From NCBI GenBank assembly GCA_025359965.1, contig JANYDC010000031.1:95900-159899 (forward strand): a stretch of 64,000 nt of DNA, written 5' to 3'. How positions within the stretch are numbered: the first letter of the stretch is position 1; each line of letters begins with the position of its first letter. Shown one piece after another: positions 5,206 to 38,179 of the stretch. This DNA is from Pedosphaera sp. (GTDB lineage Bacteria > Verrucomicrobiota > Verrucomicrobiia > Limisphaerales > SXQI01). The notes beneath the pieces were generated by a model that did not search any database, was not told where the DNA came from, and was given only the letters and a program-made list of their open reading frames with translations. The position numbers and the translations under genes were made by a program.

Positions 5206-8200
5206 TTAATCCTTCAGGTGGATGCGGTAGAAGCGGCTTGGTGCGTCAGGCAGTTGGGGCTGATAGATCATCATTTCACCATCACCGATCAGACTGTTCT
5301 CCAAAACGGTCCACTCAGGAGTGGTCAGTGTGGGCGAAGACTCAAGGCTGTAGACGGCATTGGTGCCAGTGGGCCAACGAAGCGTGAAGATGCCATCCGC
5401 GTGCAATGAATTGAGTTTAAGCTTGGAGCTGAAATCGGTGGGATTAGTCCCAGCCTTGAACTCGGCCATGTTGGACATGCCATCACCATCAGCGTCGGCA
5501 TCAGGTGCGGAAAGCATATTGAGGAGCGAACCAAAATACTTAATGCGCCATGCATCGGGAATACCATCGTTCCAAGGTTTGGCACTGCGGGCACTCATGG
5601 TGATCAGTCCATCAGAGGTGGTAGCAGGAAGAACGGAGATGCCGTTGGGCGATCCTGACATGTGCTCGATATGCACGAGGAACGCGGTGTTGGGGCTGGC
5701 ATTAGTGGGGATGTTGACACGGAGAACACCCACGATGGCAGAATCCTTAATCCCGGCCTTCGAAGTATCCAGCCATGACGCTGCATAAATATTGTTTTGC
5801 TCCACGCCACCCTGGGTGGGCTGCCCCATCTCGGCAGATGGAACGAAGCTAACTGGCTGGGTCAGTTGGGTGTTGCCGTCAACAGACTCAACTTTCAACC
5901 GCATTAATAAAGCACGGATGGGGAAACCGCCTTTGATCACCGCCCGGATGGGGATATCAACGACCTGGCCGGGAGAGACGACCGCGCCGTCTGCGGAAAA
6001 CGCAACCGATACCGCCTCTCCATTGCCTTCATCCAGCGCTTGAGCATGGACAACTCCGGCAACTCGCAAGGGATCGCCACGGAACAAATTGGAGACCGCT
6101 ACGGATTGGAGAAGCCCGTTGCTCCAGTATCTCTCATAGTTCACCAAAGCTGGATCAAGGGATCGACGGAACGCCACATAAAGATCGGCGACATCCAACT
6201 GACCATCTCCAAACCCAATTTCATTTACGATTCGGTCATTGCCATCACTATTCACAAACGAACCCGCCGCATTCAAATAAGTTGGAGCGAGAAAGAAGTT
6301 CGTGGTGGTAACCAAATTAGTAAGCACCGCGATGTTGGTGACCGCAAAATCATTGGTGGTAAACCCGCTGATATTGGTGACGGTCACCAAATTAGTGGTG
6401 ATGATGTCGTTGGTGACGAAGGTCAGATTGGTGGTGATATCCTGAACATTGGTGGATGAGACCAGGTTTGTAACCACGTCAACAAGATTGGTCACCAAAA
6501 CGAAGGTGGTTGCGTCCAAATAATTGGTAGTCACCACGTAATTCGTGAGCACCTCGTAAAGATTCGTGGTGATCAGATTGGTTGAGAAGGCAAAGTTGGT
6601 GGTGACGATAGGATTCGTCAGGTAATCGGCAAAATTCACCACATCGAAATTCGTGGTCAGATTGACGATATTTGTCACGAAGATGTTGGTGACAATGGCC
6701 AGATTTGTGAAAATGGTCAGGTTGGTGGTGAAGCCGGTGATGTTGGTGGTGACGCAACAAGTGTCCATCGCGTCCAGCATGTCACTTCCGGGAGGGGGCA
6801 GATTGAGTCCGTAAGCCACGGATTGATGAAGTTGCTCAAGGTCGTTGTTGACGATTGTGTTGTCGCCAAAATCGCCCGCGTTGAACCACCGGAAAGGGGC
6901 GACATCGCCCACCAAGTAGTGCCGGCTGGCCACAGTGACGGTCTGCACGGCCTTGATCGGAACGGTGGGATCGGAGCCGTTCGGAGCCTCAATGAGCACA
7001 TCCTCTGAAACGCCATCTGAATTGCCGGAAGCCCTGCCGATTTTCATCTGATAAGTGTCGCCAATGGCTGCGGAACCCGGAACCACAAAGGAAGCGGCGC
7101 CCATCACCACTTTACGGTTCTTGCTGGAGAAAATGGTGTCGTGAGGCTGTGAATAGCTGATTAGATCCTGAGCTGAGGTGTCGTATAGATTCTTACTGCC
7201 GGCACGTTCAAGCCAACCCACTCCAATCAGGTTTTCCGCAAAATCATAGGTGAAAAGGTTTGTGAACACCGGCACTTGATTGGTGAAGAAAACCGTGTTG
7301 GTGACATTGTTGATGACCTGCTGAAAACTGCTGATGGAATTCAACAGACCAACGTAGGCTGCATTGGTGATTGTCAGGTAGTTATCACCAAACTTTTGCT
7401 TGAGACTGGAGGTGAAAGAGAGGCTGTAATCCGAGTTGAACGCCGGAGCCGGACCCGTCAGGTTCTCAACCTTTAGATTGAAACTCATGCCGTAGATTTT
7501 CTGATTCGGCAGGGTGGTAAGTGTCACTGGAGCGTAAAAGCGCTGGCCAGGCGCAGCCACAAACTCGCTGGATGCCTCTCCACCGCTAAACCCAAGGCTG
7601 ATTCGGTTATTGATGAAATTTGTAGGGGAGAACGTGGCGCTGGCCGTTTGGCTGGAAGCAAAGTTATCCAGGTAACCGCGCGCCTTAACCACCAAATTGC
7701 TTCTACCGATCACGAGACCAATTTTTTCGGAGTTGAAAATGGGGCCGTGAGTCGCAGGATTTACTCCGGGCACGTTGGAAGGATCGCTTCCATCCAGAGT
7801 GTAATACATTTGAGCATTGGTGGTGCTGTTGAGGAAGGTAATGTTCCCCGGTGTGGAGACGGCATCAATGCTCGGGGTTGCCACTTGAAACCGGAAGGTG
7901 GCCTCCACAATCCCACTGGCGGTTCGGCCGGGCGCGGAGCTAAGCGCCTTTACAGTGAGAATGGGTAACTGACCGGTCAGCGTCGCCGGACGTTTCGACG
8001 GGGGGAGTCCATCGAAGTACTCCGGGGCAGTGGGTGAATTCACATCCGGTTTGGGGAGCAAATCCGGATCAAACACGTTGGTTCTTCCAGGACCCGCCGT
8101 CCAAAGATGGCGGACATTTGGTTCGCCGCGTATGCCAATGGTCACATCATTATTGAAGATCGAATCGGTCACGGGGAATAGTTTTAGCACTTCGCTGCCC

Positions 8201-9258
8201 GAAGTAGGGTCCACAATGACTTGAATGTAGCCGATGGCGGGGTCGGTAATGCGCGGAGGCACGGGGCTCACCAGAATCTGACGAACGGCGCGGTTCAACT
8301 CGTCGACCAAAAGAAAGCCGGTTGAAAACCTTACCAACGACGCAGGAGAATTGAAACGCGCAGCTGAGAGCAATCCATCGGCAAAACCCGAGGTTCCAGG
8401 AAGGCCTGCATAGGTCTGGACGGAATACCCTCCGATTTCGGGATCGGTAAAGACACGACGTAGCGAATGATTCTCGGAGTCGGTAATGAGCAAACCGAAA
8501 TTGGTTCCAAGCCAGATGACTCCGTCAGGCAAACTGAAAGAAGCGTCAAGACTGGCCTCGGCATCCAAGGCGCCTATGGATCCTGAACCGGCAAATACGC
8601 TCACCATCCCGTTGGTATCCACGGCGCGAATCAGATTGGCCGCGCGATCGGCCACGAACAGCCGTCCATCGTCCGCCATGTCGATCCCGGAAGGACCGGA
8701 AAAACCCGTGGCATAAGTGGTGACGGAGTCTGAGTTATCCAATCGCCGGATGTTCTTTGAGCGAAAATCCGAGATGAAGATATTGCCGAGTTTATCAAGC
8801 GCCAGTCCGCGTGGAAGACGGAACTGGGCGATGCTGCCCGGTCCATCCAACTGACCCGAAACACCCGTTCCCGCCAGAGTGGTGACAGTGCCGCTCGCCA
8901 GGTCAATGAAGCGAAGGGAGTGGTTGCCCGAATCGGCCACCACCAAACCGCCGCGTGCGTAAATGATCCCATGCGGATCGTTGAAGCGGGCTTGAGCCAG
9001 AGTTCCATCCACATGGTCAGCCACGCCGGATTTACCGGCGAGGACTGTGTATTCCCCGGTGGACATCCTGAAGCGGAAGATGCGCTGGGTGGCCGGATCG
9101 GTCATGTACAGATTGTCATCCGGGTCGGCGGCCACGCCGTAGGGCTCCAAGGGCCCTGATGTCGGCGAGGTACTGCGCACAATCGTGCTGACTGTTTGCG
9201 CCATCCCCTGCCCGACAAGGGCGGTAAGCAGCCAAAGGAATGCCAATCTAAGTTTCAT
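5206..9258 (-). CDS. Giant secreted NHL-repeat protein with chitobiase-C-like, cohesin-like and split dockerin-like modules, a TN-rich insertion, and a TSP3/FYR C-terminus (paralogue 4)
   Basis: Signal-like start MKLRLAFLWLLTALVGQGMAQ (in-frame ATG at 9258; ORF open to 9297). NHL blades (GVADGLL..ARFN.P.G). YYTLDGSDPS (CHB_HEX_C-like). YLVGD...NAGDFGDN and FGDGQLDVADL (dockerin-like). DADADGDGMSNMAEFKAGTNP. Ends SRFYRIHLKD. Confidence 0.85.
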   Translation of the reverse strand: MKLRLAFLWLLTALVGQGMAQTVSTIVRSTSPTSGPLEPYGVAADPDDNLYMTDPATQRIFRFRMSTGEYTVLAGKSGVADHVDGTLAQARFNDPHGIIYARGGLVVADSGNHSLRFIDLASGTVTTLAGTGVSGQLDGPGSIAQFRLPRGLALDKLGNIFISDFRSKNIRRLDNSDSVTTYATGFSGPSGIDMADDGRLFVADRAANLIRAVDTNGMVSVFAGSGSIGALDAEASLDASFSLPDGVIWLGTNFGLLITDSENHSLRRVFTDPEIGGYSVQTYAGLPGTSGFADGLLSAARFNSPASLVRFSTGFLLVDELNRAVRQILVSPVPPRITDPAIGYIQVIVDPTSGSEVLKLFPVTDSIFNNDVTIGIRGEPNVRHLWTAGPGRTNVFDPDLLPKPDVNSPTAPEYFDGLPPSKRPATLTGQLPILTVKALSSAPGRTASGIVEATFRFQVATPSIDAVSTPGNITFLNSTTNAQMYYTLDGSDPSNVPGVNPATHGPIFNSEKIGLVIGRSNLVVKARGYLDNFASSQTASATFSPTNFINNRISLGFSGGEASSEFVAAPGQRFYAPVTLTTLPNQKIYGMSFNLKVENLTGPAPAFNSDYSLSFTSSLKQKFGDNYLTITNAAYVGLLNSISSFQQVINNVTNTVFFTNQVPVFTNLFTYDFAENLIGVGWLERAGSKNLYDTSAQDLISYSQPHDTIFSSKNRKVVMGAASFVVPGSAAIGDTYQMKIGRASGNSDGVSEDVLIEAPNGSDPTVPIKAVQTVTVASRHYLVGDVAPFRWFNAGDFGDNTIVNNDLEQLHQSVAYGLNLPPPGSDMLDAMDTCCVTTNITGFTTNLTIFTNLAIVTNIFVTNIVNLTTNFDVVNFADYLTNPIVTTNFAFSTNLITTNLYEVLTNYVVTTNYLDATTFVLVTNLVDVVTNLVSSTNVQDITTNLTFVTNDIITTNLVTVTNISGFTTNDFAVTNIAVLTNLVTTTNFFLAPTYLNAAGSFVNSDGNDRIVNEIGFGDGQLDVADLYVAFRRSLDPALVNYERYWSNGLLQSVAVSNLFRGDPLRVAGVVHAQALDEGNGEAVSVAFSADGAVVSPGQVVDIPIRAVIKGGFPIRALLMRLKVESVDGNTQLTQPVSFVPSAEMGQPTQGGVEQNNIYAASWLDTSKAGIKDSAIVGVLRVNIPTNASPNTAFLVHIEHMSGSPNGISVLPATTSDGLITMSARSAKPWNDGIPDAWRIKYFGSLLNMLSAPDADADGDGMSNMAEFKAGTNPTDFSSKLKLNSLHADGIFTLRWPTGTNAVYSLESSPTLTTPEWTVLENSLIGDGEMMIYQPQLPDAPSRFYRIHLKD
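6295..6757 (-). repeat. Coding (T)TN-rich low-complexity insertion, ~154 aa with 23 TN dipeptides
   Basis: Read directly from the protein: VTTNITGFTTNLTIFTNLAIVTNIFVTN...ITTNLVTVTNISGFTTNDFAVTNIAVLTNLVTTTNFF. At DNA level, repeated ttggtggt/ttggtga units on the + strand. Confidence 0.93.
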
Positions 9259-9303
9259 GATATTTCGCAGTTCACCCACTGGAGACATTGATCCCACGAC
9301 TCT

Positions 9304-12300
9304 CTATTCAGCACGCATCCGATAGAACTTGGTCTTATCCAAGGTGTTGGAATCAAGGATCTCCTTGATGGTTCCATCACCTTTGACAGCCGTCGCAATC
9401 TTGACCCACGAGGCTGGATCAGCAGGCGTGGTGGTGCATTCGATGATGTATTGCTTGCCGGGGAGGGTCAGCCAGCGGATTTTGAACCCGGGCTTAAACT
9501 GATCGGCAAGGGCCTGCTTCACTTGGAAGCGGAGCTTCGCAGGATTTGATCCACGTTGAAATTCCTCCCAATTGCTGACGCCATCGCCATCTGCGTCCTG
9601 ATCGGGCTTCGAGAGCACGTTGCTCAAGGAACCGAAGAAGTGGGAGCGCCATTCGTCGCTCAGGCGGCCGAAGTTGTTGGTGCCAGCAGTGCCAACCCAG
9701 ACGCAGCCGGGGAGCGATTCCAAATCGTACTGAACCCGGATGCTCGGGGCGCCGTCCACGTTGAGGAAGCGCACGGTGTAGCAATCACCTTGCACGGCGG
9801 TCAGCGGAACAGTGAATTCCACATACCCAATCAAGGTGCGGCCGCTCAAGCTAAGGCCGGAGTCCAGACTCCAAGCATGGCCCACTTTATTGGAAGGCAG
9901 TCCATCCACGGTGATACCATTGGGTAGACCTTCTGCCAGAATAAAACTAACTGGAGTAGTGATAGCACCGTGTGCGGACTGTACTTCAGCCAGGAATTGC
10001 AAAGCTGAAATGGTGCGACCCGGTTTGATATCCACATAGATCGGTAGTCGGGCCACGCTTCCAGCCTGGGCGTTGTTGACAGATTCAGCCTCGACGAGGG
10101 CCTGGCGGAACCATTCAACTGCGGGCGCATCGGAAACGGCTGCCGCAGTCACACGTCCGTGATTGGCCGAAGTTGGGCTGGGGGCAAGGCCGCTGCTGAC
10201 GGTGTCCAGAAGACCATCGGTGCTCCAGGAGCGCATCCAGTTCTGCGGATCGATGCGGAGGGAGCGGAACAAAGTAACCTGCCAGTCGAGCAGACGAATC
10301 TGACCGTCGCCGCCAACAAATCCATCTTCATCAGCCGGGAAGCTATCCATGGCGTTGAACGCATCCGAGTACGTAAACGGACTATGGATTTTGAGGGAGG
10401 CATAAAACGCATTGTTCACGTCGGCATTGTCCAGATTGCCATCACCGAAATCACCAGCGTTGTACCAGACTCCAGGGGAGGAATCACCCACCAGATAGGG
10501 TATGTTGGCAACGGTGATGGTCTGATCAGGAGCGGGCACCAATTTAAGGATTGCTTGTGAGGCGTTGGTGGTACCGGAGGGTTCGAGGATTCGAATCGCG
10601 TAAACATCACCTGGTTTGGCTGTTTTTGGGATCTCCACTGCAAGCAGGTTGACGGTCGCGTAATCCTTGAGCAACAAGTGGGCACCGGTGCCGATGAACG
10701 ACATGGCGATCTCGTTGGTCCGGATGGGGGTCGTCGTCTGGTTTCTGAACCATTCATTGGTGGAAGTCACATCCGACTGGCTGCCTGTTATCACCACGAA
10801 ATCGTTGGTGCCGAAATCCAGACTGCTAAACGATGTTACGCTGTCCAAGTTGGGTGCGGTCCCGGTTGGCCACACTTGCACTCGATATTGCAGGCTGCGC
10901 AATTGATCGGTGGGCTTGAGGCCAACCACGACGGGAACAACAATCTTGGAGCCGACGCCGCCTTTGGCCGCGCGGGCTATTCCGATGGTGCTGTTGGTGG
11001 CCAGTGAACCCGAAGTAAGAAGGCTCGGCAGAACCCTGTCTGCAAATGCGCGGGAACGCACCGCACGGAGGTCCGGCGAAGAGGCACTCACCCCATTGAG
11101 TGGGATGGGTCCGGTGTACAAAGGGCTGCTCTCGGTTGGGTCGCTGCCGTCGAGTGTGTAGTAAATTTTGGAGGTCGTGCTGAAAGCAGACCCGTTGGTG
11201 CGCGACACAGTGAGGGTAAGAGAAGTGCCATCCTGGAAGAATCCGCGCGGGGGGTTCATGACTGGCGCGTCGGCTTGAATAAAGACATCCTGCGAGGCGA
11301 TTGTGCTGTCCTCAAACACGTTCAAGTCGGAGTCATTGACTCGTGCGGCAGCTTTAATAGTTGCGTTCGTGTCCAAGCGGATCAAACCCGAGGTGAAGGT
11401 CTGCTTTGTCGTGCTGACCAGCGGCGAGGTTCCATCCAGAGTAAAGTAGACCACTGTATTAGGATTTACTGTCGCTGTTGTAAGTTCGGCATACATCACA
11501 TTGATGTTGGTGGAGCCGGATGCAGGTGTGCGTGCCGCGTCGGAATAAAGCTGGATGACGGGTGTTGCCGCCTTCAGGATGATGGCGGTGGAGGCAGTGT
11601 CGCTGTTAATAAACCCGCTACGAACCGCAGAAACTGCAAGCAGGCCAGTGCGGTTGAGAGTTATTGTAGCGCTTTTGCCAACCGCGGCGACACTAAGGAT
11701 ATTGGTGTGTTGCGGATCCGAGGCATAATAAAAAGTTGCATCGGATGTTGCGGTGGTAAAGACGACCTGCACCGCGTTGTCCGATGGATTGCTCGAAACA
11801 GCAATGGTTGGAGTAGCCACTTTGAGGTCAAATTTTGCCGAGACCACCTTGCTGCTCACATAACCGTCACCAGCAGGCCGGTAAGCGATGACCTTGAAAA
11901 CACCGTTGGTACCAATTACAGTTTCAATTCCATTTCCGATCGGCAACCCAAACTCTTCTGTTGGATTAACAGCTGAGTCCTCGCTGACAATAACGTACCG
12001 CAACAACGCGCCCACCGTACCGGTATTCACTTTGACGACAATCGAATTATTGGTCGAAGCGCTGGCAGGTGTGATCACTGGATCTGCGACTGTGAAGCTG
12101 AAATCGTTGGTAATTACAGGGCTGGGCGTATAACCCGCACGAAAGGCACGGAGCTGGATCTTGCCCGCAGGCAGGGAATGACGAGTGCTCCAGACGGGGC
12201 TGGACTCGGTCGGATTCTCACCATTGTTGCTGTAGTGGATGACCGCATTTGTGGTCACCGTGAATGCCGTTATTTCCACATCATTGGTGAAACTGCCGCC

Positions 12301-13767
12301 GGTGGGCGACATCGCGATGGGATCGACAAAGAAATCAAAGCGGTTGCTGACGATTCCAGATGCGTCGTAACCATCCTTAAAACCACGCACAATAAGTGTC
12401 GTGTTGCTGCTTAGAGTCCGGTCGCTCCACACTGATCCGGAAACAATCGGCTCTGCGCTGTTGTTGACACTCGCAGTGAACCGGATGCTGGCATCCGCTG
12501 TCAGAGTCGAGATGACAACGTCCACATCATTGCTGAACTTTCCGCCCTGAGGTGTGAACGCGATCGGGTTAACTCCGAATGTGTAGTTGTTGCTGACAAT
12601 CAAGCTGGCCGAAAAATCAGGATTATAAGCACGAATCTTCAGCGGCAGAGGCCCACCTGTCACAGCGAGGCCGGATACGCCGGAAGGAAACAAAGCAGAG
12701 GTTGGGATGGGGTCGGAGCCATCGGTCGTGTACCGGAATACCGAACCGGGTGTGGTCACAGGCACGGGCTGTTTAGCCAGAACATTGACCGTGTTGGTGG
12801 AAATAATAGTGCCAGGAGTAACGATGGGAGCTTGAGCAACACCGCGTGTAAATTTACGCAGCGAATTGTTCTTTAAGTCCGCGATCAAGATATCGCCGTT
12901 GTTATCAACAGCCAGACCCACAGGCTCGCTCAGGCGAGCGACCGTAGGAGCCCCTTCAACATTGCCCGAGGTTCCCAATTCGCCAACCAAAACTGTCTTG
13001 GCCGATCCTTTGGAACCCAGCACATAACGAATCACGGAATTGGCGGTATCGCTAACAAGCAAGCCGGTCTTGCCGCCAACCCAAAGCAAACCGCGCGGCC
13101 CATCAAAACCGATAATTGTGGTCGTCAGGCTGTCGGCATTCGCCAGATCAAATTCTTTTACCGAATTGTGGCCGCTGTCCGCGACGAAAAGACGACTGCC
13201 ATCCAACGCGACTGCGGCGGGACGCAAAAAGCTTTCAGAAGCGGCCACCGTGGTCACTGAGGCAGCTGCATTGTTTTCGATTCGGCGAACCAGATTGTTC
13301 TGAAGGTCAGCGACGTAGATGGAACCGTCGGGCCCGGCAGCGAGGCCGGCCGGTGAGAAGAAGCGGGCGTTTAGTCCGCTAGTATTGTTTTGGGCGCCAT
13401 GAACATGATCCGCCCCGGCCAGAATATCTGTCTTTCCGTCAGACAATCGGTAATAGCGGATGGTGTGGGCTTCGGTGTCGGCAAACACGAGCACACGGCC
13501 CAACCCGGCCCGGTCGGCAATGGCGATACCCTCCGGTGTGACGGCCAACACGAGAGCTGTGGTCTCACCGGTGACGGGATCATAACGCACGACGCGTGAG
13601 TTTGATCCATCGCTAATGTAATAATCCCCAGTGGCGCTATCGACGGCTACGCCAAACGGCTCAAAAAGCGCATCGGTGGGGACGGTGGAAACGACCTGTG
13701 AGAGCGCAACACCGCAGAGCGCTGCAAATCCCAGCAGGGTGGAGAGAAGTTTGCGTGTAGTTAGCAT
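9304..13767 (-). CDS. Giant secreted NHL-repeat protein with a multi-copy chitobiase-C-like array, cohesin-like and dockerin-like modules (paralogue 3)
   Basis: Signal peptide MLTTRKLLSTLLGFAALCGVALSQ. NHL propeller. Repeated 'P..G.F.NDV.I...T..A.I.Y...G..PT..SP.W' segments. YLVGDSSPGVWYNAGDFGDGNLDNADVNNAFYASL...GGDGQIRLLDWQVTLFRSLRID. DQDADGDGVSNWEEFQRGSNP. Ends KFYRMRAE. Confidence 0.86.
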   Translation of the reverse strand: MLTTRKLLSTLLGFAALCGVALSQVVSTVPTDALFEPFGVAVDSATGDYYISDGSNSRVVRYDPVTGETTALVLAVTPEGIAIADRAGLGRVLVFADTEAHTIRYYRLSDGKTDILAGADHVHGAQNNTSGLNARFFSPAGLAAGPDGSIYVADLQNNLVRRIENNAAASVTTVAASESFLRPAAVALDGSRLFVADSGHNSVKEFDLANADSLTTTIIGFDGPRGLLWVGGKTGLLVSDTANSVIRYVLGSKGSAKTVLVGELGTSGNVEGAPTVARLSEPVGLAVDNNGDILIADLKNNSLRKFTRGVAQAPIVTPGTIISTNTVNVLAKQPVPVTTPGSVFRYTTDGSDPIPTSALFPSGVSGLAVTGGPLPLKIRAYNPDFSASLIVSNNYTFGVNPIAFTPQGGKFSNDVDVVISTLTADASIRFTASVNNSAEPIVSGSVWSDRTLSSNTTLIVRGFKDGYDASGIVSNRFDFFVDPIAMSPTGGSFTNDVEITAFTVTTNAVIHYSNNGENPTESSPVWSTRHSLPAGKIQLRAFRAGYTPSPVITNDFSFTVADPVITPASASTNNSIVVKVNTGTVGALLRYVIVSEDSAVNPTEEFGLPIGNGIETVIGTNGVFKVIAYRPAGDGYVSSKVVSAKFDLKVATPTIAVSSNPSDNAVQVVFTTATSDATFYYASDPQHTNILSVAAVGKSATITLNRTGLLAVSAVRSGFINSDTASTAIILKAATPVIQLYSDAARTPASGSTNINVMYAELTTATVNPNTVVYFTLDGTSPLVSTTKQTFTSGLIRLDTNATIKAAARVNDSDLNVFEDSTIASQDVFIQADAPVMNPPRGFFQDGTSLTLTVSRTNGSAFSTTSKIYYTLDGSDPTESSPLYTGPIPLNGVSASSPDLRAVRSRAFADRVLPSLLTSGSLATNSTIGIARAAKGGVGSKIVVPVVVGLKPTDQLRSLQYRVQVWPTGTAPNLDSVTSFSSLDFGTNDFVVITGSQSDVTSTNEWFRNQTTTPIRTNEIAMSFIGTGAHLLLKDYATVNLLAVEIPKTAKPGDVYAIRILEPSGTTNASQAILKLVPAPDQTITVANIPYLVGDSSPGVWYNAGDFGDGNLDNADVNNAFYASLKIHSPFTYSDAFNAMDSFPADEDGFVGGDGQIRLLDWQVTLFRSLRIDPQNWMRSWSTDGLLDTVSSGLAPSPTSANHGRVTAAAVSDAPAVEWFRQALVEAESVNNAQAGSVARLPIYVDIKPGRTISALQFLAEVQSAHGAITTPVSFILAEGLPNGITVDGLPSNKVGHAWSLDSGLSLSGRTLIGYVEFTVPLTAVQGDCYTVRFLNVDGAPSIRVQYDLESLPGCVWVGTAGTNNFGRLSDEWRSHFFGSLSNVLSKPDQDADGDGVSNWEEFQRGSNPAKLRFQVKQALADQFKPGFKIRWLTLPGKQYIIECTTTPADPASWVKIATAVKGDGTIKEILDSNTLDKTKFYRMRAE

Positions 13768-13775
13768 GATATCGA

Positions 13776-16700
13776 TCAGTTCTGAGGTATTGCGGACATT
13801 CTGAAAAATTGAGCATTATTACCAACTGGAGACTGACGAAGCAGTGTCATCCAGTCGTTGCCGCCCAAGAGAGGGGTGGATACCTCAAGCCAGGGGCCCG
13901 CTGGGCTTGAGGAAGATTGTAAGGAATACTTGACCGTTTTGTGGCCAAACCATTTGACCTGAGAGAATCCGTCCGCCCCACTGGTCACTTCCAATTTTAA
14001 ATCACTCTTGGTGGGATCGGTGCCGGCCAAGTATTCCGTGTAGTTCGAAGCCCCGTCGCCATCATCATCGGATGAAGGCAGGATTGAATCGGCCAGGAGT
14101 GGACCAAAAAAGTATTCACGCCATTCAGGGGGAAGTGGGTTATCAGGCTGAAGGGCCGCCGAACTCACCCAGACGTTTGCGGACAGAGTTTCCCAATCGA
14201 TCGATGTCCTAATATCCGGCGCGCCATCCGCGTGGTCGATCCTAACCGAATAGGCTGTGCCCGATGTCGCACCGGCAGGAACCTTAAAGTACAGATTGCC
14301 AAGCAGCGTGGTTCCAGACAATGCGGGAGTAAAAGCCCCTAGATTCCAAGACACAAACAGGGAGGCGGGTTCCTGACTGCCCGATCGGTCGGCAGGCGGT
14401 ATAGATTCTCCAGGTGCGAAGTTGAGACTATCGATGGCGGGCGAGCCGGCAGGCGCAACCACTCGCGCCACAAACTGAAGACCGGATACGGTGGTCCCCG
14501 GCTGAAGGACGACATAGACAGGCACCAACATGGTGATTGACTGGGGAATCCCGGTCACCGTGTGAGCCTCAACTCGGGCGGGACGAGCCCATGAGCGGGG
14601 ATAACTCGATGATTTGGCTGAAACTTTACCGCTGTGGCTGCTGAGAGTTGCTCCTGGAAGCTGGCCCAGAGGCGTCGCCATGAGATCTCCATGTGAGTCC
14701 CGACGACGCGTCCAATTGCCGGGGTCAATCCTCAAAGAACGCAAAAGAAGCAGTTGAAAATCGAGATAACGCAATTGGCCATCACCGCCGGGACGCTCCA
14801 CGGAATCAACCGGAAAGGCGTCCATGGCATCGAAAGCGTCAGTGCCCGCATAAGGGGTGCGGTAACCCAGCGTGGCCAGGAACACCCCGTTGACATCATC
14901 GTTCTTAAGATCGTGATCGCCGAACTCGCCGCTGTTGTACCAAAAGGCATGGGCGGAATCACCGACCAGATAGGACAGATTGGTATCAATGGTGATGTGG
15001 CGGATAGGGAAATTGGTCATGGCGACATCCGTGTTGACGCCGTCGGAAGTGGCGGATGCCTGCAACACTGAGATCGAATATTGCTCATTGTTGGTGGCAT
15101 TGCCAGGCAGGCGCACCGAAAGCATGGTGACAACCGAAGTGGACGTAACTGCGGGACTGCCCGGGCCGGATGAAAGGTAGGCCAAACCCAAACCGTTGGT
15201 GGTGCCAATGCTGTACGAAACACCCTGCTGATCGTTAAAGCCTGCCGGGTTGACGAGAATGAATGAATCGCTGCGCACCGGGAAGGTTCCCAACGAAGGA
15301 GTTGGGCGGTTTGTCTGAGAGATGACTTCCACGCGAAATTGGACCGAACGGAGCGCATTGCTCGGAGCGGGTTGAAGTTCAATCGGCAAGACAATCAGCG
15401 AGCCGGGTGCCCCCTTGAAATCGCGAGTGAAGCCAACGCTGTTAATCTTTGCGTCAGTAACTTTAAAATCGTGCGTGGTGACCGCGCTGGGCAGGTATCC
15501 AACACGAAAAGCGCGAACTTTGATGGAAACGTCAGAGCCTAAAAAAACATTAAGAGGCGTGTTTGCTTTAAACAAGTGGCTCACCGCGTTGGTCGGACTG
15601 GGGTCGGGAATGTCTTGAGTTGGGCCAACCGTATACCAGAGTTCGGCATCACGGGTATCGGTGCTCAGGCCAAATTGCACGGGGTTGGAACCATTTACTA
15701 CTGGATTGGCGCAGCGAAAATCAAAGATGGCGGTTGCCACTCCACTGGCCCGTCGATTGATTTGGGTGCTGATGGCTTTGATAACGATATGACCGGAGCG
15801 TCCAGGAATCACAGCGAGTAGATTGATAGGAAAACCAGGCTGACACTCAAGGTAGGCAGGCGGGGTCAGAGATGCGGTCGTAGGATCGGCTAGATCCTCC
15901 GTGTCCGACACATTCGAATAGGTAAAATAGGTGCTAGATCCCAACTCGGTGCGGATGGCGATCACAGGATCATTGTTGAAAGTGCCGGTCTGAAGAGGGC
16001 TTAGGGTTGCCCCGCATCCGTTTAAGGGGAAATCAACCGTGCCGAAAATCGGAAGCTGAACCTGCTTTTGATTTGAGGCTGGAGGCAGAAAACCTTTTAG
16101 GGCGTTGTCCTTGCGATCAGACACCACCAAAACATCATCGAGATCGTAGGCCATGGCCACAGGGGAAATCAAAGCCACCCCGGCGCCGGCAATGGGAATG
16201 GTGGACACCATGGGGGATGCCGTGTCGGCATCCGTGATTCGGCGGATCAGTCCGTTGCCCGCATCGGCGACCAGCAGTTCGCCCGATGACTTGTAAAGCA
16301 AACCACGGGGATTGTTAAAAAGAGCGCTCGTGGCATTGTCACTGTCCTTATAGCCGGAGAGGAAAGTTGAATTGCCACCGGCCAGCAATGTCCTTAAATA
16401 GCCATTCGTGGAGGGAGTCAGCCGATAAATTGAATGAGTGGCTGCGTCCGCCACAAAAAGAGTTCCAGCAGGCCCAACCGCCACTGCTGATGGGCGGTTG
16501 AAACCGACACTTAACGTGGTCAACGCCTTGGTGGCCAAGCTGAGCTTCCGAATGGCCCCGTTGAGGGAATCGGCAATATAGATATCATCGCCGTCCACCG
16601 CTAGTCCGGATGGAGCGTGAAGCTGTCCATTCACGCCATTGGCAGCGTCCTTAAAACCGAAATTATCGGGTTCCTCTCCGATCTCATGTGAGGCAAAGGC

Positions 16701-17135
16701 CAGACCCAGATTTCCGGCCACCGTTAAAACTACTCCGTTTGTATCAATGGTCCGGATCAAATTGTTTGCCGTATCCGCAACCACAAGAAGGCCGCGGCTC
16801 ATAACCAAACCCTGTGGGCCGTAAAAGCGCGCCAGCGTGCCGGTGTTATCCACCGCACCCTTGTTGTCAGAACCGCTCCGACCGGCGAATTCCTCAACGA
16901 GACCAGATGCCTGGTTGTAACGGACGATCCGGTTGTTGGCGCTGTCGGCGACAAAGATTCGATTATTCTCGGTGACGACCAGGCCGTAAGGCTCAAAGAG
17001 GTTGGTGGTCAAGACCAAGGTCAACACTTCGGCGTGTGCGGAAGCTGTCAAAACGAGAGCCAGACCGAAGGCCAGAACGGCGGCTCGTCCCCGGCTAAAA
17101 GCGTGGACCAGAATGGATGTGCGCTCGGTGTTCAT
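13776..17135 (-). CDS. Giant secreted NHL-repeat protein with chitobiase-C-like, cohesin-like and dockerin-like modules (paralogue 2)
   Basis: Signal-like N-terminus (...AAVLAFGLALVLTASAHAE). NHL blades. YLVGDSAHAFWYNSGEFGDHDLKNDDVNGVFLATL...GGDGQLRYLDFQLLLLRSLRID. DDDGDGASNYTEYLAGTDP. Ends FFRMSAIPQN. Confidence 0.86.
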   Translation of the reverse strand: MNTERTSILVHAFSRGRAAVLAFGLALVLTASAHAEVLTLVLTTNLFEPYGLVVTENNRIFVADSANNRIVRYNQASGLVEEFAGRSGSDNKGAVDNTGTLARFYGPQGLVMSRGLLVVADTANNLIRTIDTNGVVLTVAGNLGLAFASHEIGEEPDNFGFKDAANGVNGQLHAPSGLAVDGDDIYIADSLNGAIRKLSLATKALTTLSVGFNRPSAVAVGPAGTLFVADAATHSIYRLTPSTNGYLRTLLAGGNSTFLSGYKDSDNATSALFNNPRGLLYKSSGELLVADAGNGLIRRITDADTASPMVSTIPIAGAGVALISPVAMAYDLDDVLVVSDRKDNALKGFLPPASNQKQVQLPIFGTVDFPLNGCGATLSPLQTGTFNNDPVIAIRTELGSSTYFTYSNVSDTEDLADPTTASLTPPAYLECQPGFPINLLAVIPGRSGHIVIKAISTQINRRASGVATAIFDFRCANPVVNGSNPVQFGLSTDTRDAELWYTVGPTQDIPDPSPTNAVSHLFKANTPLNVFLGSDVSIKVRAFRVGYLPSAVTTHDFKVTDAKINSVGFTRDFKGAPGSLIVLPIELQPAPSNALRSVQFRVEVISQTNRPTPSLGTFPVRSDSFILVNPAGFNDQQGVSYSIGTTNGLGLAYLSSGPGSPAVTSTSVVTMLSVRLPGNATNNEQYSISVLQASATSDGVNTDVAMTNFPIRHITIDTNLSYLVGDSAHAFWYNSGEFGDHDLKNDDVNGVFLATLGYRTPYAGTDAFDAMDAFPVDSVERPGGDGQLRYLDFQLLLLRSLRIDPGNWTRRRDSHGDLMATPLGQLPGATLSSHSGKVSAKSSSYPRSWARPARVEAHTVTGIPQSITMLVPVYVVLQPGTTVSGLQFVARVVAPAGSPAIDSLNFAPGESIPPADRSGSQEPASLFVSWNLGAFTPALSGTTLLGNLYFKVPAGATSGTAYSVRIDHADGAPDIRTSIDWETLSANVWVSSAALQPDNPLPPEWREYFFGPLLADSILPSSDDDGDGASNYTEYLAGTDPTKSDLKLEVTSGADGFSQVKWFGHKTVKYSLQSSSSPAGPWLEVSTPLLGGNDWMTLLRQSPVGNNAQFFRMSAIPQN

Positions 17136-17138
17136 CGG

Positions 17139-20100
17139 TCAGCGAATTTTAAAACGGTAGTACTGATTGCCCCCGGTGGCCGAGGTGTCGTTGTAGATCA
17201 GCATTTGATCCTGGCCGATCTGCGATGATCCCACTTGCTGCCAGGCTTCGAGATCCTGACTGCGTTCGATCGTGTAGATGGAATTTGCCCGGCCGAACCA
17301 GCGAATCCGGGCGCCTGACTCAGAGACCGCAACCCGCCAATCGGAGGAAACAGGGTCCATTGAGCCAGCGAATTCCTCGAAGTTACTAAAGCCATCATGA
17401 TCAGGGTCAGCGCCAGCCTGAGCATCCTCATCAGTGAGACTTCCAAAATGGTACATCTTCCATTCATCGGGCAGAGGATCGGCCGGAAGCAGGGGGCCCC
17501 CACCAATCCACACGTCGCTGCGAAAGCTTTCGAAGTCGTACATCGTCACCAAGTCGTCGGAGGCCCCATCCGCCTTTTCGAAGTGAATCTGGTACCGTCC
17601 GCCGGACAAAGCCGAGGCAGGCACACGGAAAACGAGATAACCGAGAATCACATTGCCATGAAGGGGTGCGAACAATGCCCCCACATTCCACGAGCAAAAG
17701 ATCGCGTTGTTGATGGTGCCAAAGCCGGGAATACTATTGCCACTGGGGGAGGCTGCCGGCAAACCCGATGACGCCCTGAAGTTGACCAGGCTGACCGTCG
17801 GCTCACCCTGATCTCCGGTCACATAAGCAATAAACTGCAATCCCGCCAGGGATGCGCCGTCCTTGATCCGGAGGCGGACAGGCACTTCTATCAACTGATC
17901 AGGTTGGACATGACTAAAGGCGTCGGCGCTGATTTGAATACTGCGATGATAACCGGATGGACTTGCCTTGGCTGTGACCTCGGACACCGAATCCAAGGGC
18001 TGGCTGTCAGTGCCAATGTAGGGCTTGAGTACGCCATCTTTGGTCCATGTGCGCTTCCACAGTTTGGTGTTGAAACCAAGCGAACGGCGCAACAGAATCT
18101 GCCAGTCCAGAAAACGTATTTCCCCGTCGCCGCCGACCCCGGAGGCGCTGTCCTCAGGGACAACATCCATGGCGTTGAACGCGTCGGAGGATGCATAGGG
18201 AACCTTGAAACCGAGCGAGGCGTAAAACGCATTGTTAACGTCGGCATTGTTGGGAAGATCACTGAGACCAGAGCCGAAATCCCCAGCATTATACCATCCG
18301 CCCGGGGCGGTATCACCCACCAGATAACCCTTGTTGACCACGGTGATCAGCCGATCCGGCATGGGCTGCAAAGGCACAGCGGTCTGGCCATCGCTGGTTC
18401 CACTGGCCTGCGAGATATGGACGAGGTATTGGGATCCCACACTTGATTTTTGGCCGAGTGAATCTGCCTGCGAAGGGATGGGGATCGAAAGAACCGCGAC
18501 CGCTCCAAAAGGGCTGACCCTGAACACTTGGTTAGTGCCGATGTACACCACGGCAAGACGGCTGGTGCCACCCGAATTCGAGAGGAAAGTCAGCGGAGTA
18601 TTGGTGCTCGCCAAGGCCATCGACACAAAGTCGTTACTGGACATGGTAAGAGCCTTGGGTTGGAGGGGAGGCTCAATGCGTGCGGCACTTCCCACCTTGG
18701 AAATCTCGACCACCATCTGAAGGGATCGCATCACGGCGTTACTGCGCAGGTTCACTACCACCGGGAGAATGAGCGTCGATCCCAGGCCGGCGGTAAAATT
18801 AGTGCCGTTCAGGCTTGGAGCAATTCCCACTTCGCCCTGGATCGGAGTGGTATCAAACGTGGAGGCCACGCCGCGCGCCACCAGGCTAAGATTGGTTTCC
18901 GATTGGAACCGCACGCGGAGACTTGTCAGATCCAACGAAGACAAATTCCATTCGACAATCCTCTTGCCCCCGATGCTTGGGACCACTGGGCTGTTAGTGG
19001 TGGGGTCAGTGCCGTCGGTGGTGAAATACACCGTGGTGTCGGGGCCGAAACCGGTGGAAGAAATCGGGCTGGAAACCTCCACCTTAACACCCATGGGATA
19101 ATAGCCGGAATTGGGCGTCAATACCGGCGCTTGCAGCACAACGTTGGTACCTGATCCATTGGTGTTTCCACTGCCGTTCGTATTCCCGCCAGCACCGCCG
19201 CCGCCGCCGCAGAAGGCCGGATAAGTGAACCCGGTCCCCGCACGAATCAAGTGATAATAAACTTCGCTCCCATAAACTGTTCCATCCTCACCAACCGTGA
19301 GGCCCACGGGATCGCGTGACTCTGCGTACTGCACCGAACCATCAGCCCAGCCAGGAAAAAGATTTGCCCCGGGAAAATCCTCCCAAAGACTCGGATCCAC
19401 TCCATAGAAAGTATCAAGCGTGCCGTCGCAACCCAGTACTCGGACGCGATGGTTGCCTCGGTCAGCGATTACCAGGCTATTGTGAAGCCCAACCGCAATG
19501 TTCCAAGGTTGGTTGAGCAGCCCGTAACCGGGAAGGCCATTGCCGAAACCGGGCATGTTCAAGGTTCCGCCAAAAAGAATGGGAGCATCACCAGGCGTGT
19601 TAAAAATCCAGATCACATGATTACCGGCATCGCTGACGGCCAACTTGCCCTCATCCATCACGGCGACCCCGCGAAATTGAGCCAAGCCATCGACAAATTG
19701 GTAGGTAGCCACTAACGCGCCGGCTGAGGAATATTTAGTGACGATTCCGTTCAATTCCGCCACATACAAACTCGTCCCCTGCCCTATGGTAAGGGCCGTT
19801 GGCACACTCACAGTGGTGGCAACTTTCGTCATAAAGTTGCCAAATCGATCGTACTTTTGGATGTCGTGCGTGATTTCGTTGGCAACGTAAATCACGCCGT
19901 TGGTGTCGACCGTGACAGCCACCGGCTTCTGCAAATGGTTTGCCTTGTTGAGCTGTGGGATGAACGTGGTGACAAATTGATCGGAAGCCCTGATGGATCG
20001 AATCATGTTGTTGGCTGAATCCGCCACAAGGATGTTCTTATCCTTGGTCAGGGCCAAACCCATGGGGCCATCGAATTGAGCGGTGACGTTGCCGAAGCCA

Positions 20101-20249
20101 TTGGCAAACCCTGCGAATGCTCCAGCAATGGTATCGAGCGATCCACCAGTCTGGGCATCAACCCGGCCTGTAAAACAGAGCAACACCAGCACAACCACAC
20201 ACCAGAGCGCTGCCCTGGTCTTTCTTTGAATGAAGCGTTCCATACTCAT
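17139..20249 (-). CDS. Giant secreted NHL-repeat protein with cohesin-like and dockerin-like modules (paralogue 1)
   Basis: Signal-like N-terminus (...[20 protein letters not shown]). NHL blades. [40 protein letters not shown]...[41 protein letters not shown]. Ends QYYRFKIR. Confidence 0.86.
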   Translation of the reverse strand: [1036 protein letters not shown]

Positions 20250-20284: not shown

Positions 20285-22372
20285 TTACTTACCGCCTTCG
20301 TTGGTGTTAATGGATGCTCCCGGCTCGTTGTCACCCGATGGCGACACACTGGCCTGTTTGCGAGCTTGCTTGATCTCTTCTGCGGATTTCCCACTGTTCA
20401 TGGGGCCGACAATTTCATCACTGTTTTCGGGCACCTTGGTGTTCAAAAACTCAGTGTGCGTGGCCTGGAAATCCTCAAACTCGATAATAGTGGGGGTGAG
20501 GAATATGATCAGATTTGAACGCAGGCGTTCCTTCGTTTCGTGGCGGAATGCCCAGCCAAGAATGGGAAGATCGCCCAGTATGGGCACCTTTGCATAATTC
20601 TTCGCCGTGGAATCGCTGACCAAGCCACCCATCACCAAAGTGTGTCCGCTCGGGATTACCACCTGGGTGTCAATTCGGGAGGTGGAGAAAATATCAGCCT
20701 CATTCACTTTGCCGTTAATGACTTTGCGCGAAGGCTGACCTTCGACTTTGGATATCTCAGGTTTGAGTTTGAGCGAAATATTGGTGCCACTAATGCGCGG
20801 AGTTACGATCAGGATGGTTCCTACGTTGGTATAATTCGGCTTGGTGCTGGAAACCGTTGTTCCACCCGAGCCCACACCCTCACTGCTGTCAAAAATGGGT
20901 ATTGCACGTGTCACTTCAAGGCGTGTTTCCTGGTTATCCAAAGTTACCGCGCGGGGAGTGGCCAACAGTTTCGAGTCCAGCTCAGTGTTAAGGAAGGACA
21001 AAGCGGCGTTGACCCCGTCTGCATTAAGGAAAGCCACGCTCGGGTTGAAACCACTGGCAGTGGAGGCGGTCAGGCCTCCCGCACCAATAGTGGTGACCTC
21101 ATTCTTGGTCACGTTCTGAACGGTGGTGCTCGAAGGCGAAATCGTAACCGGTCGGCCACTGGGCAGAGTGGTTGTGGTGGGGGCGCCAGGCGTGTCCGTC
21201 GACAAAGTGCGGGTGGAAGTACCGGCGATCTTGCCGTTGCCAAAGCTGAAGTGCTGGGCGGAAAGCGTGTCCGTCCAGTCCAGGCCCTTGGCTGATTTCG
21301 GATTTTGGATGGTCTCCAGAAAACGGGCCTCAATTAGGACCTGCTTGGTTGGAGTATCAAGGGATGCCAATAGATTGGTTAGATTCTGGTAATCCTTCTG
21401 CGTCGAGGAAACCACCAACTGCGCAGTGCGCGTATTGGGAAGTATTTTAGCGAGAGGGAAGGCGTTTTGAAACAACGTCACCATGTTGGTCGTGCTGCTG
21501 TAGTGGAGCTGGATGACATAGTTGAAAACAGGGTCCTTGGCGGTTGGATCCTTAAAGGTCACCTGCGAAAAACGAGTGCGAGGATCAGAGATCAGGGTCA
21601 GTCCGAAATTGTTCAACACAGCCTCAAGCGTTTGCTGTGGTGAAACACCACCAAAACTCGAAAGTGAAACCGTGTTGGTTGACACGGGGGGAAGATCCAC
21701 AATGTTCGTTCCGACATAGCGCACGCCGCCACTCTTAATCTTGGGATCGATCAGCAGATTCACCTTGGCCAGTTTGGCCAGCACAGCGACCGCCGTCAAA
21801 AGCGGCACTTCCTTGTTGGGTTCAAAATAGGCTTCCAGCTCCTCGTCGTCCTTTTTAAGCACTTCGCTGATCGGTTCTTCCAGAGCCTGTAGTCCGGAGT
21901 CCTTGGTGGCGACGATCAGCGTGCCTGGAGTATTGGTGGAGTGGCCCAGCATCAAACCCTCCTTGTCAAGAAGGCGGAGAAGGGCCTGCCGGTAGGTAAT
22001 CTGCTCGAACCGCTGCGATCCAACGCTTTGCATCAGCAGATCAACAGGCTTGCCGCCGTTCATGAGCTCGGGCGCAAACTCAACATGCAATTTCGCCTGC
22101 TCGGCCAGGCTCTTGATGGCTTCGCCCAATTGGAGCTCGGCATCAAGGGCAACCAGCGCCACCACCTCCGTGGAGGGCGAGGGCGCTGAAGAAGACGGCG
22201 CTGCCTGCGGATTGGCAGCCGCCGGGACAGCGTTGTTGGTGTCGGCGGGAATCCCGGTCTGGCCTTGCGCAATGGGGGCACAGGCTAGGATCAGGGACAT
22301 CAGCGTGGAGAGAATCACCTTCATATTAGCGTGAGTTAAGGGACAGGCGCGAACAAAGCTTGGCATCGACAA
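20285..22372 (-). CDS. pilQ: Secretin (PilQ/GspD family)
   Basis: Secretin C-terminal signature VPILGDLPILGWAFRHETKERLRSNLIIFLTPTII. VLIEARFLET and N-domain-like repeats. Last in M-N-O-P-Q gene order. Confidence 0.9.
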   Translation of the reverse strand: MSMPSFVRACPLTHANMKVILSTLMSLILACAPIAQGQTGIPADTNNAVPAAANPQAAPSSSAPSPSTEVVALVALDAELQLGEAIKSLAEQAKLHVEFAPELMNGGKPVDLLMQSVGSQRFEQITYRQALLRLLDKEGLMLGHSTNTPGTLIVATKDSGLQALEEPISEVLKKDDEELEAYFEPNKEVPLLTAVAVLAKLAKVNLLIDPKIKSGGVRYVGTNIVDLPPVSTNTVSLSSFGGVSPQQTLEAVLNNFGLTLISDPRTRFSQVTFKDPTAKDPVFNYVIQLHYSSTTNMVTLFQNAFPLAKILPNTRTAQLVVSSTQKDYQNLTNLLASLDTPTKQVLIEARFLETIQNPKSAKGLDWTDTLSAQHFSFGNGKIAGTSTRTLSTDTPGAPTTTTLPSGRPVTISPSSTTVQNVTKNEVTTIGAGGLTASTASGFNPSVAFLNADGVNAALSFLNTELDSKLLATPRAVTLDNQETRLEVTRAIPIFDSSEGVGSGGTTVSSTKPNYTNVGTILIVTPRISGTNISLKLKPEISKVEGQPSRKVINGKVNEADIFSTSRIDTQVVIPSGHTLVMGGLVSDSTAKNYAKVPILGDLPILGWAFRHETKERLRSNLIIFLTPTIIEFEDFQATHTEFLNTKVPENSDEIVGPMNSGKSAEEIKQARKQASVSPSGDNEPGASINTNEGGK

Positions 22373-22401
22373 CGGGCGGTGCCACTTGAGCAGCCAGAGA
22401 A

Positions 22402-22962
22402 CTATTTTTTCTTGAAAACATTGAGTACGATGGGTTGAGGCTGCCCGTTGATCAGGAGAGTGATGGAACCGCGCATAATTTTGGTGGCTCGGACGCGGAC
22501 TTTTTGCTCGTGCCCGTCCAGCACCACGCTGAGCCAGGTGTCACGATCCAATTCAAGCGTGGCGTTGTTGATTAGTGCGACTCTGTCCACACCTACACCA
22601 ACGATGCCCTGAAAACCTGCCTGCAAAGCCAGCATCAGCGCATTACCGGTTGTCTCCTGTTTCCGCCCCGACTCGGGCTCTGTGGCGGCGCGCACAACGG
22701 CATCAGAGATGCGGGAGGAGCCTGGAAAAAATGGATTCTTTGAATTTGACGAGGCTACAAATACGGATTGCACGGAGGAGGCTGGCTTTTTGACTTCGGC
22801 GGCTGCTACCCCGGCTTTGGCTGCGGGCGGGCGGGCGGGGGCCGGGGCGGTAGCCGGCGGCTTGGATCCGCAGCCGGAGGCGGCGAGCAACCCCGCTGTA
22901 AGGATCACACTAAACAGACCACTCCGGAGCGACTGTGAAAAATTGAAGATCTGGGCTGGCAT
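22402..22962 (-). CDS. Putative lipoprotein in the PilP position of a pil operon
   Basis: Lipobox-like ...LLAASGCGSKPP, Pro/Ala-rich linker, small C-terminal domain. Identified mainly by position between PilO-like and secretin genes. Confidence 0.6.
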   Translation of the reverse strand: MPAQIFNFSQSLRSGLFSVILTAGLLAASGCGSKPPATAPAPARPPAAKAGVAAAEVKKPASSVQSVFVASSNSKNPFFPGSSRISDAVVRAATEPESGRKQETTGNALMLALQAGFQGIVGVGVDRVALINNATLELDRDTWLSVVLDGHEQKVRVRATKIMRGSITLLINGQPQPIVLNVFKKK

Positions 22963-22972
22963 CGGTTTGTCC

Positions 22973-23614
22973 TCAGAGGGTGGTCGGGCGGATCAAGGTT
23001 ACAATCCTCAGTTCGACCGCCAGTTTTTCAGCGCTTTCCGGAAGCCCGGCACTGCCGCGAACCGAACCATTGGGCAGCTCATTTCCGCCCATTAGCCGGT
23101 TTCTGGCCGCACCCTCGGGGTGAATGCTCACACTCAGAAGGCGCCAATACGGAAAGGTGTTTTCCATGTCCGCCATGAATCGCCCCAAATCACTGTAATA
23201 TGCCGAGAGAACGACATTAAAAGTCGCCGCCTTATAAGGAAAATTAGGCAACAATCCCGCATCCCCTAAAACTGGCTGGCCGATATCTATAACTTCAACC
23301 GCGTATGCCTTGCGGAACCGCTCCATCATTTGAAAGAAGGAATAATAGGGATCGCCCCTCAGAACCATATCCTCCTGCTTGGCTTCAAGATTCTTTTTTA
23401 GCCCTCCCAGTTGATCAAGAATGGCAGGTCCCATTTTCGACATCAGTTCAGCTTTGGAAACCTTGTCGGCCAGTCCCGCAATCTTAACCTGATTCTGCTG
23501 GATTTGCTCCTGCTGGCCGGAAATCACGAACAAATAGAGCATTGCTATTACTCCGCCGCCGCTTAAGGAGGCGATGAGCAGTTTGTCGCGTCGTTCTTTC
23601 GAGAGCTTAATCAT
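22973..23614 (-). CDS. PilO-like inner-membrane assembly protein
   Basis: N-terminal TM (LLIASLSGGGVIAMLYLFVISGQQEQIQQNQ) plus coiled-coil and C-terminal ferredoxin-like domain. Overlaps the pilN-like gene by 8 nt. Confidence 0.7.
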   Translation of the reverse strand: MIKLSKERRDKLLIASLSGGGVIAMLYLFVISGQQEQIQQNQVKIAGLADKVSKAELMSKMGPAILDQLGGLKKNLEAKQEDMVLRGDPYYSFFQMMERFRKAYAVEVIDIGQPVLGDAGLLPNFPYKAATFNVVLSAYYSDLGRFMADMENTFPYWRLLSVSIHPEGAARNRLMGGNELPNGSVRGSAGLPESAEKLAVELRIVTLIRPTTL

Positions 23615-24506
23615 TCGTCAGAATCCTTTCCTGCAACCGGCACTCGATGGTGAAAGGCACAAACAGTGCGCTGGGATTGGCGGCGTCGCCCGAATCCGGA
23701 CGGGCTTGGGCTGGGCGGTCCGTAAACTTCAAAGCCTGGCCTTCCGATTGATGGAGGCGATCTCGGAAATAAGGCAAATTGACCAGATTGCGGGTAAATG
23801 AATCGATGTGGGAGCCTGGTGGATTGCTGTAATCCCGGCCTTTGATTTCGATCAGAGTGGATTCCACCATCGCCGGCACCATCGTGTATTCAGCCCGTGC
23901 TGTCACCGTCTTGGTGGTCGTATTGGTTGAGAGAATGGAAAGTTTTAAAGCGAGCTTTACCTTGTTGGTGCTGAAAGGGGGGCGGGTCGCCAAAGCCTTG
24001 AGTTGATTGGTTATGGCTGTGAACACTTCAGCATCCGGCGCGCTTGAAGCCCAGAACTTCCAGCCAGGCTGCGAATTTAGAAACGCGGCGGTGAGGTTGG
24101 TGGAGAAAAATTTTGAAGTGTCGTTCGTGGCGTATTTCTGGCTGGCGTTAAACTCAACGATTCGAACATTGTCCATAGTGGCCAACTGAAAAGCGTTAAG
24201 CGCGGTCGCCCAGAAAAACCGATTGGAGGAGTAAACCTCCAGCGAAGACATGCGGCGGTCGATATCCGTTGCCAGAGTCCGGTCCGTGCGCACCTGTTTG
24301 GAGGCCTCCTCGATGCGCTTAAGGCGGTTTTCGTAATCCTCCAACGTGGACCTGCCCGCCGCCGTTTGCATTTGGAGAACACCAATCCATGCAACGAACA
24401 GAAAAACCAGAAGCACAGCACCCCAGATGACACGCTTGACGGGATCCTTCCGCCGCACCTCTTCTGCCGCCTGCTCCTCCGCCAATAAGTTAATGCGTAT
24501 CGGCAT
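23607..24506 (-). CDS. PilN-like inner-membrane assembly protein
   Basis: MPIRINLLAEEQAAEE... start is PilN-like ('INLLP'), followed by TM VIWGAVLLVFLFVAWIGVLQ. Located between PilM and PilO. Confidence 0.75.
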   Translation of the reverse strand: MPIRINLLAEEQAAEEVRRKDPVKRVIWGAVLLVFLFVAWIGVLQMQTAAGRSTLEDYENRLKRIEEASKQVRTDRTLATDIDRRMSSLEVYSSNRFFWATALNAFQLATMDNVRIVEFNASQKYATNDTSKFFSTNLTAAFLNSQPGWKFWASSAPDAEVFTAITNQLKALATRPPFSTNKVKLALKLSILSTNTTTKTVTARAEYTMVPAMVESTLIEIKGRDYSNPPGSHIDSFTRNLVNLPYFRDRLHQSEGQALKFTDRPAQARPDSGDAANPSALFVPFTIECRLQERILTND

Positions 24507-24512
24507 ATCTTA

Positions 24513-35108: not shown

Positions 35109-35119
35109 AATCGCGGAGC

Positions 35120-35153
35120 GCGCCTGTGTTCCGCTCCGAGCGGAATCAGGCGC
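35120..35153. terminator. Intergenic hairpin downstream of LRR protein 1 (possible terminator or small palindromic element)
   Basis: GCGCCTGTGTTCCGCTC-cga-GCGGAATCAGGCGC folds with one small internal mismatch, 12 bp after the stop codon. No clear poly-T tract. Confidence 0.5.
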
Positions 35154-35429
35154 AGCGCATAGGCTTGCGGAGAAGGACGAACCTACCCATGCCGGGCGTC
35201 ACCATCGCCGTCAGAATCCTTTCATCTCATTACCAACTGCGCGTGACAATCATGCTCGGCCGCGGAACACACCAGCATTGCGACGGAGCAGTGGGACACC
35301 GCACATCATCTCAAGAGGAACGGCGTGGCGAGTCACCCAAAACAAAATTTGACGCCGAGATGGGGAGCCATAATCTGAATTTATAATCCTGAGCCATCGA
35401 ATAGACCCAAACATTAACACCCCAAAAGC

Positions 35430-37286: not shown

Positions 37287-37575
37287 CCAGTAGATAGGGC
37301 GAAGTGCCTTATACCTCGCCCCCCTTGCCCCGATCCAAATCCCCCGGCAGCAACTCCACCTCCCAAAAGATCCTTCCGTCCCCTCATCCAGCCAAACGGA
37401 CTCCTCCCTAGCCCCCCCTCTCCGGTCCCCTCCGCGTCTCCGCGCGATCAAACTGCCCCGAACAGCAGTCGGCAAACCACAATGCAACATTTCCAACCAA
37501 ATTAAGAGCGAATGTATGTTTTTTAAGTAGACACACAAACTTCATTAAGCTACTATCCGCACAACATACAACATC

Positions 37576-38031: not shown

Positions 38032-38179
38032 CCAACCTTCGCGGAATCTTAAGATGAACGGTGCCAGCGTTGACGACACCATCGCAAAGTTGCGTAACAA
38101 CGATGTAACCTCAAAAAATCGGCGTTTTCATCTGAAGGCCCACCCCACTACCATTCAGCAATAGCTAAGGAAGGAACCC

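Follow-up and report, generated by a model that had tools for sequence, protein, structure and literature searches.

The host protein and its gene neighbourhood

The window, by which the whole analysed stretch of 64,000 nucleotides is meant, carries on its reverse strand a gene for a secreted NHL-propeller protein of 1363 aa (5206-9297 (-)), recognised from the list of open reading frames and from Pfam. A signal-peptide-like start is followed by an NHL beta-propeller (E=5e-19), a region resembling Fn3_assoc and CHB_HEX_C (Fn3_assoc, E=7.7e-5), a weak cohesin-like beta domain (E=0.025, under the cut-off), a two-motif FGDG domain that is split by an insert, a second beta domain and a TSP3_bac motif (E=0.0016, under the Pfam cut-off). 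The first half of the FGDG domain (...WFNAGDFGDNTIVNNDLEQ...SDMLDAMDTCC; 6754-6925 (-)) and the second half (APTYLNAAG...DGNDRIVNEIGFGDGQLDVADLYVAFRRSL...; 6120-6291 (-)) were delimited approximately from an alignment of 67 orthologues and from AlphaFold, and both carry the repeated motif FGDxxLxxxD together with a helix. In the AlphaFold model of the domain with its insert, built on this alignment of 67 sequences, pLDDT values reach 94-97 over most of the first half and 92-94 over the conserved part of the second, and lie at 33-55 in the insert, where no confident strands are predicted.

An earlier sequence-only reading of this DNA had called the split domain dockerin-like, which the searches did not confirm. 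No Pfam dockerin match was obtained at E≤10 for two representatives and all 30 aligned orthologues, and a PDB-sequence profile search with the FGDG domain returned no dockerin, its best match being an EF-hand protein at E=0.1. Foldseek with two AlphaFold models found nothing at E≤0.001, a negative result that weighs little on the dockerin question, because one of the two, the short-linker model, reaches no more than moderate confidence (mean pLDDT 73.8). Yet the FGDxxLxxxD-helix motif is present in both halves, and when the F-hand ligand positions (D/N at 1, 3, 5 and 12) are read by eye in the alignment, the aspartates at positions 5 and 12 are largely conserved while ligands at 1 and 3 are not evident.

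Three tandem NHL paralogues lie beside the gene (9304-13767, 13776-17135 and 17139-20249, all (-); open reading frames and Pfam) and have a short linker at the insert site, as had been noticed from the sequence; in the neighbour of the block-bearing gene it measures 11 aa. All four NHL genes are located downstream of, and on the same strand as, a PilM/PilN-like/secretin cluster (20285-25592). This cluster comprises PilM (24513-25592 (-); PilM_2, PF11104, 1.9e-23), a PilN-like protein with a partial Amuc_1101-family match (23607-24506 (-)), two small proteins called from their open reading frames (22973-23614 (-), PilO-like by position only, and 22402-22962 (-)) and a secretin (20285-22372 (-); PF00263, 7.9e-41). 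The Amuc_1098, Amuc_1099 and Amuc_1101 models give weak matches to the cluster, all of them far under the curated cut-offs. Read from translations, the arrangement PilM, secretin, NHL recurs in two genomes of two other families (G074 and G233), and this shared gene order suggests a dedicated export or pilus-like system for the NHL proteins. Elsewhere in the window, three tandem BspA-like leucine-rich-repeat proteins (32742-40705 (+)) were recognised by reading of the translations, two of which account for 69-bp tandem repeats.

A block of TN hexads within the FGDG domain

The insert is a block of 154 aa (6292-6753 (-); residues 849-1002 of the 1363-aa protein), bounded by DAMDTCC on its N-terminal side and LAPTYLNAAG on its C-terminal side. 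The limits first proposed, 6295-6757 for a block of about 154 aa, were at most 4 bases off, and both flanks are as originally quoted, with the frame open throughout. The earlier inference of an in-frame insertion confined to one paralogue is thereby supported. Recounting likewise returned the 23 TN dipeptides and the mean spacing of 6.7 residues of the sequence-only reading. Across 20,000 shuffles of its residues, the TN count averages 6.5 and never exceeds 15. The distance from one TN to the next is 6 residues in twelve cases, 7 in six, 5 in two and 12 in two, so that roughly one unit in three departs from the regular spacing by a single residue, and the best period of N is 6.15. A hydrophobic residue (L, I, F, Y or V) directly follows TN in 20 of the 23 units, in agreement with the first description of the motif as TTN-[LIFVY]; the leading TTN was overstated, being found in only 10 of 23. 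The repeat unit is really a TN hexad, TN-phi-x-x-x, rather than TTN. T, N and beta-branched residues abound in the block; V, I, L, F, M, Y and W make up 44% of it, and it holds 8 acidic residues (D/E) and no K or R.

Searches of Pfam and the PDB with the block gave no significant match, consistent with the earlier remark that it belongs to no named family, and no description of TN-hexad-type repeats was found in the open-licence literature. Protein-level and pattern searches of the own genome found no second TN-hexad block. A smaller TN-rich patch, NVTNTVFFTNQVPVFTNLF (7260-7370 of the window (-)), lies further towards the N-terminus, within the weak cohesin-like domain, and one orthologue (G034) has an enlarged TN patch at approximately the corresponding position.

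At the DNA level the block is a degenerate repeat, as had been proposed, albeit a weak one: Tandem Repeats Finder reports 46 bp in 2.2 copies only, and the longest exact repeat is 12 bases long, no longer than synonymous-codon permutations give (mean 13.3). Repeated 12-mers number 2 against 4.3 expected (P=0.82), and codon identities between successive TN units number 19 against 19.5 expected, with codon use similar to that of the rest of the gene. The slippage or unequal crossover suggested at first is hence not supported as a recent process, since the codons are fully randomised (P=0.82 and 0.93 against synonymous permutations), and a recent tandem DNA repeat was rejected on these permutations. 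Because the DNA is no more repetitive than its synonymous permutations, any slippage must be old, and an old repeat expansion is a possible origin of the block. The pattern persists at the level of the peptide, not of the DNA, and the fact that the period has been kept although the codons are randomised suggests that selection acts on the peptide and that the pattern is no new product of slippage.

The codon data also bear on two less favourable accounts of the block. That it stems from faulty assembly or binning might be considered for a draft genome in 162 contigs, but it appears very improbable given the frame that is open throughout, the gene-like codon use, the flanks that fit together and the comparable block that occupies this site in a genome of another family, described below. 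According to the other account, the block is neutral low-complexity filler, i.e. an old expansion in a tolerant loop that now drifts harmlessly and has no function of its own. Randomised codons are what would be expected of such an old expansion, the length and content of the loop vary widely across the order, and TN is over-used in the order generally. Drift should, however, erode the hexad as well, yet the hydrophobic follower is kept in 20 of 23 units and the period stays at 6.0-6.15 in unrelated proteins; in addition, other inserts at this site (116-127 aa, families f61 and f24) have been kept in length and sequence, at identities of up to 0.61. The neutral account is rather unlikely.

The insert site across the order

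Of the 321 genomes searched in the order, 87 gave matches, and HMM anchors defined 77 sites, 76 of which entered the linker statistics, one of the window's own paralogues being left out. The linker has a median length of 39 aa (interquartile range 27-44) and its lengths fall into two classes: 67 of the 76 sites have 19-49 aa, none has 50-89 aa and nine have at least 99 aa. Among the large ones, the linker of the own genome (G000) measures 184 aa and that of G027 measures 209 aa with 25 TN and an N period of 6.05. The linker of G109 has 127 aa with 11 TN, those of G236, G205, G243 and G240 have 116-122 aa with 6 TN each, that of G035 has 99 aa and that of G072 has 389 aa. The loop of G072 holds a complete FG-GAP repeat propeller, nested in the orthologous domain, while G027, which belongs to another family, has a TN-hexad insert at the same loop as the own genome. 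The inserts of G109, G205, G236, G240 and G243 are mutually related (z 7.5-32 against residue shuffles, identity 0.39-0.61); they represent a T/V/Y-rich type of 116-127 aa that is distinct from the TN hexads and that, in families f61 and f24, several genomes have kept in length and sequence. With linkers ranging from 19 to 389 aa, the block is not an equal-length part of a known domain shared by all orthologues, the case that had been named as speaking against an insertion.

On a tree of the flanks, from which a few short fragments were left out, the large inserts amount to 7 parsimony changes, and at least 4 of them are forced by well-supported branches. The loop thus takes large in-frame inserts independently in several lineages, while the host half-domains stay conserved. 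Since related bacteria independently place different inserts there, the loop is a landing site for extra modules. The flank tree places the TN blocks of G000 and of G027 at a great distance from each other; their alignment strongly beats residue shuffles but beats shuffles of whole units only at P=0.014, and in the G027 block repeated 12-mers are slightly more numerous than expected (P=0.036). The two blocks may have arisen by convergence or may share a very old common origin. No orthologue was matched in the close relatives G001-G004, and the GTDB collection, scanned with a single protein, yielded no relative.

TN hexads in other proteins of the order

A strict DNA pattern of three TN-phi-xxx units was found in 48 of the 321 genomes of the order, and the reversed pattern, used as control, in none. 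In a sample of the phylum it was found in 8 of 390 genomes including the own genome (7 of about 388 others), and at least 4 of these 7 other matches are near-exact DNA tandem repeats. Within the order, most matches lie in long open reading frames whose codons are diverse, and a few consist of near-identical DNA units. A scan of the GTDB collection with a four-unit DNA pattern was dominated by satellite repeats.

Dense TN-hexad blocks, defined here by at least 8 TN, a modal spacing of 6 and an open frame, occur in G000, G027, G149, G023, G013, G214 and G220. Their codons are diverse; only G214 and G220 have units that are near-identical in DNA. The N period is 6.0-6.15 in blocks of unrelated proteins, the blocks other than that of the window having 6.0-6.1. 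The G149 block is part of a protein without a Pfam domain, and the hexads of G214 and G220 precede DUF481. In G023 and G013, which represent two families, the hexads split a CotH kinase domain between profile positions of about 97-115 and 131, whereas the CotH domains of the order are mostly unbroken among the matches listed. TN hexads therefore occur in unrelated proteins of the order and interrupt a further domain, that of CotH kinase.

A search with variable gaps recovered sparse TN triplets in 182 of 196 genomes, and both gaps were in frame in 62 of 84 parsed matches, where 9 would be expected. Spacings of 5 to 8 are similarly common among these triplets, and strict hexad spacing was dropped as a general signature of the order. 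For the same reason, the hexad characterises the dense blocks alone and is superimposed on a more widespread preference for TN. Such TN repeats are a habit of the order for which there is no name, and the general bias of its proteins may lie behind part of the pattern seen in the block.

Structure and possible role of the block

Left-handed beta-helices have a period of six residues. The hexads might accordingly be read as a regular beta-solenoid of this or a similar kind, serving either as a stiff rod that stands out from the host domain or as a surface for docking, for which the six-residue period and the beta-branched composition of several unrelated blocks would speak. The block, however, contains 4 single units of the left-handed beta-helix consensus [LIV][GAED]xx[STAV]x compared with 2.4 in shuffles, no tandem pair of them and no Pfam hexapeptide match. 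Together with the one-residue slip of spacing in about a third of the units and the lack of confident AlphaFold strands in the insert, this makes a regular solenoid quite improbable. As pLDDT in the insert is 33-55, the term beta-rich is drawn from composition only. Motifs of curli-like functional amyloids (curlin QxGxxN) and of RTX proteins (GGxGxD) are both absent from the block. Motif counts lend no support to the glycosylation suggested at first: the block contains 5 NxS/T sites and no glycosylation motif of the form D[ST][AILVMT], which is of the Bacteroidetes type and may not be that of the present organism.

We favour, with a probability of roughly 0.6, the reading that the block is a surface-exposed, beta-prone insert in a permissive loop of a secreted NHL protein, probably serving as a spacer or in self-association. 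The TN hexads would fill a hypervariable and probably surface-exposed loop of the two-motif domain and, owing to their content of T, N and beta-branched residues and their lack of positive charge, might form a beta-prone spacer that reaches out from the domain surface. Such a spacer could let the extracellular protein associate with itself or reach a surface, and the NHL protein may be exported by, or work together with, the adjoining PilM-PilN-secretin system. Against a role as spacer or in association stand the lack of a confident structure for the insert and the occurrence of just one such block in the genome. A bolder and unlikely extension of the favoured reading would be that TN hexads are an undescribed, portable, beta-forming self-association repeat of the order that has been inserted repeatedly into loops of secreted domains and is here carried by an NHL protein delivered by the PilM-PilN-secretin system for adhesion or matrix building. 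The block is best described as an insert made of a low-complexity repeat; the probability that it represents a previously undescribed portable structural repeat is small.

A single domain loop that, throughout a bacterial order, has come to hold unrelated inserts of separate origin, ranging from a low-complexity hexad repeat to a whole propeller, provides a natural experiment on the tolerance of domains to insertion. A hexad repeat that lacks a Pfam match and breaks known domains such as CotH can, moreover, confuse annotation, and the link between large NHL proteins and a conserved PilM-secretin cluster offers a first handle on a possible export route.

Comparison with known systems

With respect to the neighbourhood, the nearest named system is the pilus-like Amuc_1098-1101 cluster of Akkermansia, in which Amuc_1098 is the outer-membrane PilQ secretin (PMC4960237). 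The two resemble each other in that PilM-like, PilN-like and secretin genes, here adjoining the NHL array, are found together; the model matches are far under cut-off and the array of NHL proteins after the secretin sets the present locus apart. The FGDG domain shares with type I dockerins, which bind calcium through paired F-hands, two related acidic-loop and helix motifs (FGDxxLxxxD) beside a weakly cohesin-like domain, but differs from them in matching none in Pfam, the PDB or Foldseek and in its missing evidence for ligands 1 and 3.

The block itself is similar to the hexapeptide repeat of left-handed beta-helices in its six-residue period with recurring Thr and aliphatic residues, and dissimilar in departing from the consensus and the Pfam hexapeptide family, in its slipping spacing and in the low confidence of AlphaFold. 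In composition, in the absence of positive charge and in having a secreted multidomain host, it is comparable to the Thr/Asn-rich low-complexity linkers of secreted bacterial proteins; unlike these, it repeats as a hexad in which a hydrophobic residue comes after TN, and it is placed within the loop of a domain, not between domains. This position is shared with domains that bear nested insertions, where a whole module is accommodated within a loop and the parent domain stays intact, as seen here for the FG-GAP propeller and for the TN hexads in CotH. In contrast to the usual nested insertions, most of the inserts at the loop of the FGDG domain are not homologous to one another, and one type among them is of low complexity.
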